64,000 nucleotides of DNA, taken from NCBI GenBank assembly GCA_022605955.1, contig JAKCOZ010000100.1:372001-436000 (forward strand), written 5' to 3'. Position numbers and translations under genes: made by a program. The notes below the pieces were generated by a model. That model made no database searches, was not told the DNA's origin, and worked only from the letters and a program-made list of their open reading frames with translations. Position 1 is the stretch's first letter. Every line of letters begins with the position of its first letter. Below are positions 25,715 to 32,100 of the stretch, piece after piece. The stretch comes from Rallus limicola. Its lineage: Eukaryota; Chordata; Aves; Gruiformes; Rallidae.

Positions 25715-25820
25715 CAGCCCCTGTGTGTTTGGCAGCCATGGAGGAACCGGTCCCAGTGGGGAAGCGCATCCTGGTGACTGGTGGCACTGGGCTGGTGGGC
25801 AGAGCCATCCAGCAGTTGAT
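25715..25820 (+). pseudogene. partial copy 1 of the first GFUS coding exon
   Basis: Contains the acceptor region, ATG (25,738) and the Rossmann-motif codons up to CAGCAG, then returns to minisatellite. It has a MEEPVPVG variant and lacks one base at its right edge. Confidence 0.85.
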
Positions 25821-26197
25821 GAACCAGTAGAAACCAGTAGAGAAACCAGTAAAGAACCAGTAGAAACCAGTAAAGAACCAGTAGAGAACCAGTAGAAACC
25901 AGTAAAGAACCAGTAGAGAACCAGTAGAAACCCAGTAGAAACCAGTAAAGAACCAGTAGAAACCAGTAGAGAACCAGTAGAAACCAGTAGAGAAACCAGT
26001 AGAAATCAGTAGAGAACCAGTAGAAACCAGTAAAGAACCAGTAGAGAACCAGTAGAAAGCAGTAAAGAACCAGTAGAAACCAGTAAAGAACCAGTATAAA
26101 CCAGTAGAGAACCAGTAGAAACCAGTAAAGAACCAGTAGAAACCAGCAGAGAACCAGTAGAGAACCAGTATAAACCAGTAAAGAACCAGTATAAACC

Positions 26198-26303
26198 AGC
26201 CCCCGTGTGTTTGGCAGCCATGGAGGGGCCGGTCCAGTGGGAAGCGCATCCTGGTGACTGGTGGCACTGGGCTGGTGGGCAGAGCCATCCAGCAGCTGGA
26301 TGA
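26198..26303 (+). pseudogene. partial copy 2 of the first GFUS coding exon, frameshifted
   Basis: ATG at 26,220. Two single-base losses near 26,233-26,241 shift the frame. Confidence 0.85.
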
Positions 26304-26621
26304 ACCAGTAGAAACCAGTAGAGAAACCAGTAGAGAACCAGTAGAAACCAGTAGAGAACCAGTAGAGACCCAGTAGAAAGCAGTAAAGAACCAGTAGAGA
26401 ACCAGTAGAAACCAGTAGAAACCAGTAGAGAACCAGTAGAAACCAGTAGAGAACCAGTAGAAACCACTAAAGAACCAGTAGAGAACCAGTAGAAAGCAGT
26501 AAAGAACCAGTATAAACCAGTAATGAACCAGTATAAACCAGTAGAGAACCAGTAGAAACCAGTAAAGAACCAGTAGAAATCAGTAGAGAACCAGTAGAAA
26601 CCAGTAAAGAACCAGTATAAC

Positions 26622-26897
26622 CCAGCCCCTGTGTGTTTGGCAGCCATGGAGGGGCCGGTCCCAGTGGGGAAGCGCATCCTGGTGACTGGTGGCACTGGGC
26701 TGGTGGGCAGAGCCATCCAGCAGCTGGATGAACCAGTAGAAACCAGTAGAGAAACCAGTAAAGAACCCGTAGAAACCAGTAGAGAACCAGTAGAAACCAG
26801 TAAAGAACCAGTAGAAAAGAGTAGAGAACCAATAGAAATCAGTAAAGAACCAGTAGAAACCAGTAAAGAACCAGTAGAAACCAGTAGAAACCAGTAG
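26622..26897 (+). pseudogene. partial copy 3 of the first GFUS coding exon, open into the minisatellite
   Basis: ATG at 26,646. The first 26 codons are as in GFUS; the frame then runs on through the minisatellite as repeats of the type EPVETSK, ending at 26,897. Acceptor and start codon are intact, so it could be spliced and translated in principle. No evidence for this is visible. Confidence 0.8.
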
Positions 26898-27530: not shown

Positions 27531-28075
27531 TGAACCAGTAGAAACCAGTAGAGAAACCAGTAAAGAACCAGTAGAAACCAGTAAAGAACCAGTGGAAACC
27601 AGTAGAAACCAGTAAAGAACCAGTAGAAACCAGTAGAGAACCAGTAGAGAACCAGTAGAAACCATTAGAGAAACCAGTAAAGAACCAGTAAAGAACCAGT
27701 AGAAACCAGTAGAGAACCAGTAGAAACCAGTAAAGAACCAGTAGAAACCAGTAAAGAACCAGTAGAGAACCAGTAGAAACCAGTAAAGAACCAGTAGAGA
27801 ACCAGTAGAAACCAGTAGAAACCAGTAAAGAACCAGTAGAAACCAGTAGAGAACCAGTAGAAACCAGTAGAGAACCAGTAGAAATCAGTAGAGAACCAGT
27901 AGAAACCAGTAAAGAACCAGTAGAGAACCATTAGAAAGCAGTAAAGAACCAGTAGAAACCAGTAAAGAACCAGTATAAACCAGTAGAGAACCAGTAGAAA
28001 CCAGTAAAGAACCAGTAGAAACCAGCAGAGAACCAGTAGAGAACCAGTATAAACCAGTAAAGAACCAGTATAAAC

Positions 28076-28182
28076 CAGCCCCTGTGTGTTTGGCAGCCAT
28101 CGAGGGGCCGGTCCCAGTGGGGAAGCGCATCCTGGTGACTGGTGGCACTGGGCTGGTGGGCAGAGCCATCCAGCAGCTGGAT
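28076..28182 (+). pseudogene. partial copy 6 of the first GFUS coding exon, start codon lost
   Basis: ATC replaces ATG at 28,099-28,101. Acceptor and Rossmann codons are present. Confidence 0.85.
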
Positions 28183-29125
28183 GAACCAGTAGAAACCAGT
28201 AGAGAAACCAGTATAAACCAGTAGAAACCAGTAGAGAACCAGTAGAGACCCAGTAGAAAGCAGTAGAGAACCAGTAGAAACCAGTAAAGAACCAGTAGAG
28301 AACCAGTAGAAACCAGTAGAAACCAGTAGAGAACCAGTAGAAACCAGTAGAGAACCAGTAGAAACCACTAAAGAACCAGTAGAGAACCAGTAGAAACCAG
28401 TAAAGAACCAGTAGAAACCAGTAGAGAACCAGTAGAAAACAGTAAAGAACCAGTAGAAACCAGTAGAGAACCAGTAGAAACCTTTAGAGAACCAGTAGAA
28501 ACCCAGTAGAGACCAGTAGAAACCAGTAAAGAACCAGTAGAAACCAGTAGAGAACCAGTAGAAACCAGTAGGAACCAGTAGAAACCAGTAGAGAACCAGT
28601 AGAAACCAGTAAAGAACCAGTAGAAACCAGTAAAGAACCAGTAGAAAAGAGTAGAGAACCAATAGAAACCAGTAAAGAACCAGTAGAAACCAGTAGAAAC
28701 CAGTAGAGAACCAGTAGAAACCAGTAAAGAACCAGTATAAACCAGTAGAGAACCAGTAGAAACCAGTAAAGAACCAGTAGAAACCAGTAGAGAACCAGTA
28801 AAGAACCAGTAGAAACCAGTAGAGAACCAGTAGAAACCAGTATAGAACCAGTAGAAACCAGTAAAGAACCAGTAGAAACCAGTAAAGAACCAGTAGAAAC
28901 CAGTAGAGAACCAGTAAAGAACCAGTAGAAACCAGTAGAGAACCAGTAAAGAACCAGTAGAAACCAGTAGAGAACCAGTAGAAACCAGTAGAGAACCAGT
29001 AGAGAACCAGTAGAGAACCAGTAGAAACCAGTAAAGAACCAGTAAAGAACCAGTAGAAACCAGTAAAGAACCAGTATAAACCAGTAGAGAACCAGTATCA
29101 CCCAGCCCCTGTGTGTTTGGCAGCC

Positions 29126-32100
29126 ATGGAGGGGCCGGTCCCAGTGGGGAAGCGCATCCTGGTGACTGGTGGCACTGGGCTGGTGGGCAGAGCCATCCAG
29201 CAGCTGGTGGCTGAGGGCGGAGGGGCCCCCCAGGAGCACTGGATTTTCGTGGGCTCCAAGGATGCTGACCTGACGTGAGTGGAGCCACCTCTGCACCCCC
29301 CCCCAAAACCCCACCACCCCTGTACCCCCAAATTCCCAGCTCTGCACCCTACACCTACCCCTTGCCTGCCAATCCCATCCCTGCACCCCAAATTCCCAGC
29401 TCTGCACCCCACACCCACCCCTTGCCTGCCAATCCCACCCCAAAATCCCAGCTCTGCACCCAAACCTCAACCCTGCACCCCAAAAGCCCTGCTCTGCACC
29501 CCACACCTACCCCTGCCCCCCCAAATTCCCAGCTCTGCACCCCATACCCACCCCTGCACCCCAAAAGCCCAGCTCTGCACCCCATACCCACCCCTGAACC
29601 CCCCAGATCCCAGCTCTGCACCCCACACCCATCCCTTGCCTGCCAATCCCACCCCTGCACCCCCAAATCCCAGCTCTGCACCCCACACCCTCCCCTGAAC
29701 CCCAAATCCCAGCTCAGCACCCCACACCCATCCCTTGCCTGCCAATCCCATCCCTGCCCCCTGAAATCCCAGCTCTGCACCCCTCAACTCTCCCTGCACC
29801 CCAAATTCCAGCCCTGCACCCCACACCCACCCCTGCACCCCCAAGTCCCAGCTCTGCACCCCACACCCATCCCTTGCCTGCCAATCCCATCCCTGCACCC
29901 CCAAATCCCAGCTCTGCACCCCACCCCACACCCTGCACCCCCAAATCCCACCTCTGAACCCCACACCCACCCCTGCACCCCCAAAATCCCACCCCTGCAC
30001 CCCCAAATCCCACCTCTGCACCCCACCCCCACCCCTGAACCCCCAAAATCCCATCCCTGCACCCCCAAACCCCATCCCTGCACCCCAGGTCTCTTCCTCA
30101 GCTCCTCTGAACCCCAAAACCTCTCCCTGTGTGTCCCCCCTGTCCCCCCCTGTCCCCCCCCCCCCCCCCAGGGATGCTGCAGCCACCAGGGCCCTGTTCC
30201 AGCAGCACCAGCCCAGCCACGTCATCCACCTGGCTGCCATGGTGGGGGGGCTCTTCAAGAACATCCACCACAACCTGGAGTTTTGGGTGAGCACCCCCCA
30301 AAAGGGGGGGGTTTGGGGTGGGGGGGGGGTTGTCCCACCACCCCCCTGTCCCCCTTGAGTTAAGATTTGGGGACACCAAGGGTCGAACCAGAGCTCCTCT
30401 GGAGTTACTGGAGGGGGGGGGCTCCACCTTATGAAGACACCATCAGTGGAGGGGAGGGCTTTTTGGGGGGGGTCCTCACCATAGGACCCCACCCCAGGAC
30501 CCCACCCCATGACTCCACCTCATGACCCCACCCCAGGACCACCCCCCATAACCCACTCCATGACCCACCCATGACTCCACCTCGACCCCACCCCATCACC
30601 AACCCCATAACCCCACCCAATGACCCCCCCCATTACCCACTCCATGACCCACCCATGACCCCACCCCATGACCCCACCCCATAAACCCACCCCATGACCC
30701 CACCCATGACCCCACCCCATAACCCACCTCATGGACCCCCCCATGACCCACCCCAAGACCCCACCCCAAGACCCCACCCATAACCCACCACATGACCCCA
30801 CCCCATGACCCACCCCATGACCCAACCTCATGACCCCCCCGTGACCCCCACCTCATAACTCCACCCCATGACCCACCCCATAACCCACCTCATGACCCCA
30901 CCCCATACCCCACCCCATGACCCCCCCATGACCCCCTCCCCATGACCCACCCCATGACCCACACCATGACCCCCACCCCATGACCCCACACCATGACCCA
31001 CCCCATACCCCACCCCATGACCCCCACCCCCATGACCCCTCCCCATGACCCCCACCCTATAACCCACCCCATGACCCCACCCCATGACCCCACCCCACGA
31101 CCCCACCCCATAACCCCCCCGTGACCCATCCCATGACCCCACCCCATGACCTCCCCATGACCCCACCCCATGAACCCACTCCATGACCCCACCCCATGAC
31201 CCCACCCCCATGACCTCTCCCCATGACCCCACCCCACGACCCCACCCCATGACCCACCCCATGACCCACCCCATGACCCCCACCCCATGACCCCCCAATG
31301 ACCCCCACCCCCAAGACCCCCACCCATACACCACCCCATGACCCCCCCATGACCCCATGCCACGACCCCACCCCATAACCCACCCCATGACCCACCCCAT
31401 GACCCCACCCAATGACCCCACCACATGACCCCACCCAATGACCCACCCCATGACCCCACCTCATGACCCCCCCGTGACCCCACCTCATGACCCCCCCGTG
31501 ACCCCACCCTCATGACCCCCCCGTGACCCCACCTCATGACCCCCACCCCCGTGACCCCACCCATGACCCCACCCCATGACCTCACACCACACACCCATCC
31601 CATGACCCACCCATGACCCCACCCCATGACCCTCCCCATGACCCCACCCCATGACCCCACCCCCATGACCTTCCAATGACCCCCACCCCATGACCCCCCC
31701 ATAAACCACCCCGTGACCCCACCCCATAACTCACGTCATGACCCCACCCCCCATGACCCACCCCATGACCCACCCCAAGACCCCACCCAATGACCCCCCC
31801 CATAACCCATTCCATGACCTACCCATGACCCCACCCCATGACCCCGCCCCACGACCCCACCCCATGACCCCACCCCATAACCCCCCCATGACCCCACCCC
31901 ATGACCCCACTCATGACCCCCCATGACCCCACCCCCATAACCCCCCATGACCCCACTCATGACCCCCATGACTCCACCCCATGACCCCACCCCATGACCC
32001 CACCCCATAATCCCCACCCCATGACCCCATCCCATGACCCCACCCCATAACCCACCCCATAACCCCCCTCATAACCCCACCCCATGACCCACCCCATACC

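Follow-up and report, generated by a model that had tools for sequence, protein, structure and literature searches.

Partial copies of the first GFUS coding exon within an intronic minisatellite of Rallus limicola: a probable case of exon stuttering

We analysed a 64,000-nucleotide stretch of the Rallus limicola genome (GCA_022605955.1, contig JAKCOZ010000100.1, positions 372,001 to 436,000; hereafter the window) that carries GFUS, the gene for GDP-L-fucose synthase. Six partial copies of the start of its first coding exon lie in the preceding intron, within a minisatellite of 10- and 11-bp units. This arrangement is most probably a case of exon stuttering, a local side effect of an unstable intronic repeat that is neutral or slightly harmful. 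The phenomenon is already known from chicken (PMC12954441) and, under the name of mirages, from amphioxus (PMC3087553), and a two-level version of it appears here in another gene and another bird. The locus is somewhat special for this two-level structure, for one readable founding junction, for the copied start codon, for its probable location off the dot chromosomes and for the inverted arrays that frame it.

Exon-start copies in the 10/11-bp array

BLASTN of the source piece against the 64-kb window returned, apart from the piece itself, six matches of high significance (E 5e-54 to 2e-46), giving seven occurrences of the 113-bp piece, all on the plus strand. These E-values exclude a chance likeness, and beyond the six copies the best match to the source piece spanned only 17 bp (E 0.78). 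The piece comprises the end of the preceding intron, the AG acceptor, two bases and then 27 codons from the ATG; the copied exon portion measures 84 bases. Thus, the original observation of six partial exon copies inside the array was borne out, with 27 codons copied instead of the supposed 26 or so. We also reused the design of the published chicken screen (blastn-short, cut-off 42.1 bits; PMC12954441), comparing the first coding exon with its preceding intron. The six copies scored 135–167 bits, while the remaining GFUS exons gave no match of 20 bp and over 30 bits in the same screen. The array, the copies and their source are listed below; identities are relative to the source piece.

25154–29094, plus strand: 10/11-bp minisatellite with embedded exon copies (Tandem Repeats Finder; unit parsing)
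25707–25818, plus strand: copy 1, variant right edge TTGATGAACC (BLASTN E 4.6e-48; 107/113)
26189–26299, plus strand: copy 2, two one-base deletions (BLASTN E 2e-46; 108/113)
26615–26727, plus strand: copy 3, longest frame with 83 codons (BLASTN E 4.9e-54; 112/113)
26926–27038, plus strand: copy 4 (BLASTN E 4.9e-54; 112/113)
27417–27529, plus strand: copy 5 (BLASTN E 2.5e-51; 110/113)
28068–28180, plus strand: copy 6, ATC in place of ATG (BLASTN E 2.5e-51; 110/113)
29095–29207, plus strand: source piece, that is intron end, AG acceptor and start of the genuine exon (sequence, BLASTN)
29124–29274, plus strand: genuine first coding exon of GFUS, donor GACgtgagt (structure matches; borders)

Copies 3 and 4 are identical across the 113 bp. 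From copy 1 through to the source, the start-to-start distances are 482, 426, 311, 491, 651 and 1027 bp. As first noted, the AG acceptor is included in every copy and is intact in all seven occurrences, and the ATG is kept in five of the six copies, with ATC in copy 6. The frameshift noted in copy 2 was likewise found and stems from the two one-base deletions, although a consensus error is possible there.

The array measures 3.94 kb and lies directly before the region of the genuine exon. Unit parsing yielded 110 units of the 10-bp form CCAGTAGAAA and, among the 11-bp units, 65 of CCAGTAGAGAA and 46 of CCAGTAAAGAA, plus variants. Its 10/11-bp nature was confirmed, but it begins about 560 bp before the interval in which it was first described. 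Likewise, it does reach the acceptor region, as the term abutting implied, but stops 29 bases short of the exon. Within 25154–29110, TATAAA occurs 16 times, among other places some 30 bases ahead of the start-codon position in copies 1, 2 and 6, where it could act as a chance TATA box; the cryptic poly(A) signals AATAAA and ATTAAA are absent from the same interval.

Probable founding junction, later duplications and known systems

All copies leave the exon at a common right edge, as had been claimed: the junction CTGGATGAACC is exact in five of the six, and copy 1 carries the variant TTGATGAACC. In five of the six segments, the same first three units follow the junction, and a 12-bp unit among these three occurs six times in the array, five times beside a junction. 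The source lacks the right flank of the copies, as expected (38.8–43.5% identity over 60 bp). Because all copies end at one junction, with one variant, we infer one founding duplication, and the simplest reading is probably a tandem duplication joining a point in the array to exon base 84. The view that acceptor and start codon were captured in a higher-order unit gains support from this common junction, from the unit order and from the left flanks of copies 2 and 6. It can be refined in that a tandem duplication between a point in the exon and a point in the array would account for both the junction and the intact exon. The genuine exon would stay whole, as the duplicate came to lie in the intron, 5′ of the source.

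The exon piece serves as a rare marker within a fine array and thereby reveals part of the sequence of events. The left edge exists in three states, TATCACCC in the source, TATAACCC in copies 3, 4 and 5, and TATAAACC in copies 1, 2 and 6, which can be put in order. The left flanks of copies 2 and 6 are identical over 120 bp and agree at 98.3% over the upstream 300 bp, compared to 70.7–91.5% in the other 20 pairs, and their strict leftward extension is about 365 bp. These alignments give good support for a later event in which copy 2 or copy 6 was duplicated together with its left flank.

The events may therefore be pictured in three steps. The 10/11-bp array would have expanded within the intron up to the acceptor region. 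A tandem duplication running from within the array to 84 bases inside the exon would then have placed a second acceptor-plus-exon-start upstream of the genuine one, as the single junction suggests. Further duplication or unequal exchange within the array, most evident in copies 2 and 6, would have produced the six compound units 311–1027 bp apart. The copies would have no selected function: the genuine acceptor would remain the one beside a full exon with a normal donor, and the copies would be half-exons that are mostly skipped and, when used, mostly spoil the message.

In the chicken, according to the parts of Hron et al. (2026, PMC12954441) drawn on here, 236 introns of 115 genes copy an adjacent exon edge. 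The exon part measures 20–187 bp (median 36), the copies number 1–44 (median 4) and the stutter spans 112–23,555 bp (median 1,751); in over 90% of the cases the copied part touches the exon border. Extensive variation of intron length between individuals is described as a feature of exon stuttering, and repeat expansions of other birds and a similar pattern in gerbils receive a passing mention. In both, a lateral part of a coding exon is copied together with its splice site into the adjacent repeat intron, and the exon itself is unaltered. With 84 exon bases, six copies and about 3.5 kb, the GFUS locus falls within the chicken ranges; its copies run across the AG border and thus touch the exon border, and the intron that holds them is 95% tandem repeat (its 5′ end being uncertain), again as in chicken stuttering. 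In contrast to the chicken cases, the gene and the bird are different, the copies are widely spaced in a separate 10/11-bp array, and the copied piece includes the start codon. Neither GFUS nor TSTA3 is named in the main text of PMC12954441.

A second parallel is offered by the amphioxus mirages, which the consulted passages of PMC3087553 describe for Adh3 and the globins BflGb6 and BflGb9. In BflGb6, a minisatellite-like duplication comprises the end of an intron and the 5′ part of exon 2, with six units in one haplotype and three in the other, and many mirage units keep their splice signals. Each GFUS copy similarly spans an intron/exon boundary, though the repeating unit is compound and measures 311–1027 bp, whereas the amphioxus units are 10–72 bp (Adh3) or 150–160 bp (globins). 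Regular splicing in amphioxus was checked by RT-PCR (reverse transcription PCR), which suggests that mirages leave it undisturbed. The earlier proposal that seven competing acceptors would challenge splicing of the genuine GFUS exon is the weaker for this, amphioxus being the closest precedent studied. GC-rich avian genes such as leptin and TNF-alpha also have introns full of different tandem repeats, some of them G-rich, as seen at GFUS (PMC6792250), but the passages of that paper at hand mention no multiplied exon parts.

Several points weigh against this interpretation. The right flanks of copies 2 and 6 are unremarkable (92.8% over 300 bp versus 69.7–91.4% in the other 14 copy pairs), and some other copy pairs extend further to the right; since these flanks do not stand out, the extent of the later duplications is uncertain, and a full order of duplication events is not well supported. 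The copies are few, lie widely spaced in a much finer array and do not form a plain tandem of a single exon-spanning unit; they thus resemble the published cases in kind but not in detail. The assembly could also be wrong. Finally, dot chromosomes hold 190 of the 236 chicken stutter introns, a tendency and not a requirement in the consulted text of PMC12954441, and the GFUS locus is probably not on a dot chromosome because the GFUS records of eight bird species lie on contigs of 122.6–173.4 Mb. The records of other birds comprise one contig of 82.1 Mb and otherwise short draft contigs, the contig given for each record standing for a 90% cluster.

Set beside the genome-wide screen in chicken, GFUS offers a worked example in a gene that lies on very long contigs in several birds. 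The consulted parts of PMC12954441 leave the origin step of stuttering open. As the founding junction and then a further duplication are readable here, an origin by tandem duplication with one end in the exon becomes testable. The locus is also a natural experiment in how seven near-identical acceptors are told apart.

Reliability of the assembly and state of the GFUS gene

Together with the exon that follows, the first coding exon matches structures of GDP-L-fucose synthase (best E 1.5e-35; seven distinct structure sequences at E up to 0.001), and the source exon is intact, with 50 open codons and canonical borders. Among the best 120 of 7891 relatives, in a database clustered at 90%, GFUS matches reach 89%. 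The rest of the coding sequence follows downstream:

30172–38181, plus strand: nine other GFUS coding exons, some borders approximate (tblastn pieces, exon sequences)

Further downstream lie a P5CR-dimerisation domain of a PYCR3-like gene (Pfam) and TIGD5, whose closest matches are 88–90% in penguins (best 120 of 194, the database again clustered at 90%). These neighbours fit the human order, which we take to be TIGD5, PYCR3, GFUS, and the gene therefore looks to be in its orthologous place. A CpG-rich stretch at about 22.4–23.2 kb, with CpG ratios of 0.58 and 1.05 in two 400-bp windows, is the likely place of the promoter and an untranslated first exon.

Seven one-base frame breaks interrupt the GFUS exons between 32431 and 36817 (one in exon 4, three in exon 5 and one each in exons 8, 9 and 10). 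Conservation was assessed against 101 relatives taken from the 120 best matches, with 97 columns identical. The GFUS of the window differs at two of the 89 covered invariant columns and, with the level set at 97%, at four of 145. Half of the differences in either count come from one of the 14 pieces (36218–36229), which was entered one base out of frame. Six other relatives show no differences at 147–148 near-invariant columns. It is probable that this pattern reflects consensus errors rather than decay. If so, the errors are local because no break interrupts TIGD5 (575 codons) or five beta-keratin frames of the same window. As GFUS likely holds consensus errors, we place no weight on single-base variants of the copies, such as the copy 2 frameshift, and the ATC of copy 6 would deserve little.

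Errors of this kind raise the question of whether the copies themselves are an artefact, with one exon represented repeatedly or reads misjoined within the repeat. The window contains a gap of 100 N at 43971–44070, between GFUS and the PYCR3-like gene; the seven frame breaks despite near-complete conserved residues look like consensus error; the two losses in copy 2 fall in short runs of C and G; and the amphioxus authors, in the part of PMC3087553 consulted, say of one of their cases that the genome draft appears aberrantly assembled. However, the order of flanking units differs among the six copies, as do all six spacings, which the stutter of a single read would hardly yield. Moreover, some copies share left-edge substitutions in a nested fashion, and the unbroken TIGD5 and beta-keratin frames indicate that errors are not everywhere. 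We therefore consider an artefact improbable.

To the same degree we doubt that GFUS is a decaying pseudogene here, in which case the copies would be without consequence. This reading would explain frame breaks in five of ten exons, and the intact frames elsewhere in the window argue against a general error rate. Falco peregrinus has GFUS proteins of two kinds on record (P0005 and P0013), one of which is altered at six of 155 near-invariant positions. However, neutral decay with seven indels should have altered many more conserved columns than the two of 89 (four of 145 at the 97% level) seen here, which stem partly from the out-of-frame piece. Every break is also of a single base, and the neighbouring genes fit the orthologous locus, the human order being our assumption. 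As a separate observation, the two falcon proteins (records P0005, P0013 and P0057), of which P0013 is the altered one, are encoded on equally sized contigs, and a duplicate GFUS gene in the falcon is possible.

Framing arrays, splice signals and other features of the window

Tandem repeats make up 95, 91, 90, 94, 9, 81, 0, 69, 0 and 10% of the successive GFUS introns (from Tandem Repeats Finder rows, the first value resting on an uncertain 5′ end), and thus 81–95% of five of the ten. Two of the arrays frame the exon and its copies in opposite orientation:

23474–24998, minus strand: G-rich array, a 40-bp minisatellite in reverse complement to the array that follows the exon (Tandem Repeats Finder; unit search)
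29314–30087, plus strand: C-rich array in the next intron, the same 40-bp minisatellite in the opposite orientation (Tandem Repeats Finder; unit search)

A search with the 40-bp unit placed 37 of 38 minus-strand matches at 23.5–25.0 kb (the remaining one at 45.2 kb) and all 18 plus-strand matches at 29.3–30.1 kb, and single arms of the two arrays are complementary at up to 87% over 120 nt. Alignment of the reverse-complemented left array with the right array covered 912 columns with 677 matches and scored 398, compared to 122–152 for 30 block shuffles and 7 for the same-strand comparison. The left array scored 276 against the intron-3 array (1930 bp) and 171, 149, 23 and 38 against other C-rich arrays; since some of these exceed or approach the shuffles, part of the likeness is compositional. 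The unit search and the complementary arms are thus better evidence of kinship than the alignment score. For an RNA duplex of the two arrays, −1323.7 kcal/mol was predicted, compared to a mean of −955.9 for ten shuffles and to −992.3 and −994.7 for two slices of the intron-3 array. In the alignment and duplex controls alike, two-base blocks were shuffled, a weaker control than a dinucleotide-preserving one. The G-rich strands carry 25 G4-like motifs in 23300–25000 and 16 in 29290–30170.

Based on these arrays, the two-level stutter, at a locus of macrochromosome type, could be more than a by-product: the arms would pair in the pre-mRNA and loop out the exon with its decoys, acting as a length-polymorphic dial on GFUS output. 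If true, decoy copy number and arms together would set inclusion, skipping or circularisation of the start-codon exon. We hold this to be very unlikely.

The splice signals bear on a related idea, namely that the decoy acceptors are a selected device that lowers or tunes how much GFUS is made, for example by tying up the upstream donor. In strength, the genuine acceptor does not exceed those of the copies, all of which have an intact AG: in all seven occurrences, 12 or 13 of the 20 bases before it are pyrimidines (19, 17 and 16 in exons 3, 4 and 6). Scored with a donor matrix, the genuine donor reaches 7.11. The copies lack this donor, yet carry donor-like sites, two internal ones per copy (6.64 and 6.41) that are also present in the genuine exon. 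Up to 450 bases past each copy, GT sites in the bare repeat score at most 2.05, save two at 5.39 after copy 4. If an internal site served to splice in a copy ahead of the genuine exon, copies 1, 3, 4 and 5 are predicted to yield pseudo-exons of 38 or 59 bases whose ATG, now the first, would be out of frame and meet a stop 25 or 32 codons on. The pseudo-exon of copy 2 (36 or 57 bases) would lengthen the protein in frame, and with copy 6, which has no ATG, the normal start would still come first. However, recent copying alone would be expected to retain such sequence, the genuine donor still scores highest, the harmless outcomes predicted for copies 2 and 6 may be due to chance or error, and the amphioxus RT-PCR (PMC3087553, as consulted) suggests that such decoys leave regular splicing undisturbed. 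We therefore hold a selected device to be very unlikely.

Transcripts that start with a GFUS N-terminus and continue into repeat peptide, as originally proposed, are possible, but the frames are short: from the ATGs of copies 1–5 they run 30, 27, 83, 45 and 55 codons to a stop. Among 468 candidates from predicted proteins, limited to 0.55–1.75 times the length of the 83-residue query so that long fusions would be missed, none joined a GFUS start to repeat peptide at E up to 0.001.

A second stutter at the donor of exon 4 was considered and rejected, the likeness being short and including no match of 20 bp and over 30 bits. At 33031–33070 and 33442–33480, intron 4 does show likeness to the last part of exon 4 and its donor, with AGCATGGTGA and similar surroundings in common; the two places are possibly a worn donor-side stutter.

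Elsewhere in the window, no Rfam match reached the gathering score, and six translated open stretches gave no Pfam family at E up to 0.01. A tandem beta-keratin cluster with a spacing of about 3 kb occupies 3650–18374 and consists of the five unbroken frames and a truncated copy near 11696, the assignment being based on one tested frame (Pfam Keratin). Two further arrays were found, one at 59659–60874 with 13 units of 93 bp (92% matches), and a very uniform one near a PYCR3-like exon at 48606–50210, with 39 units of 41 bp (95% matches).

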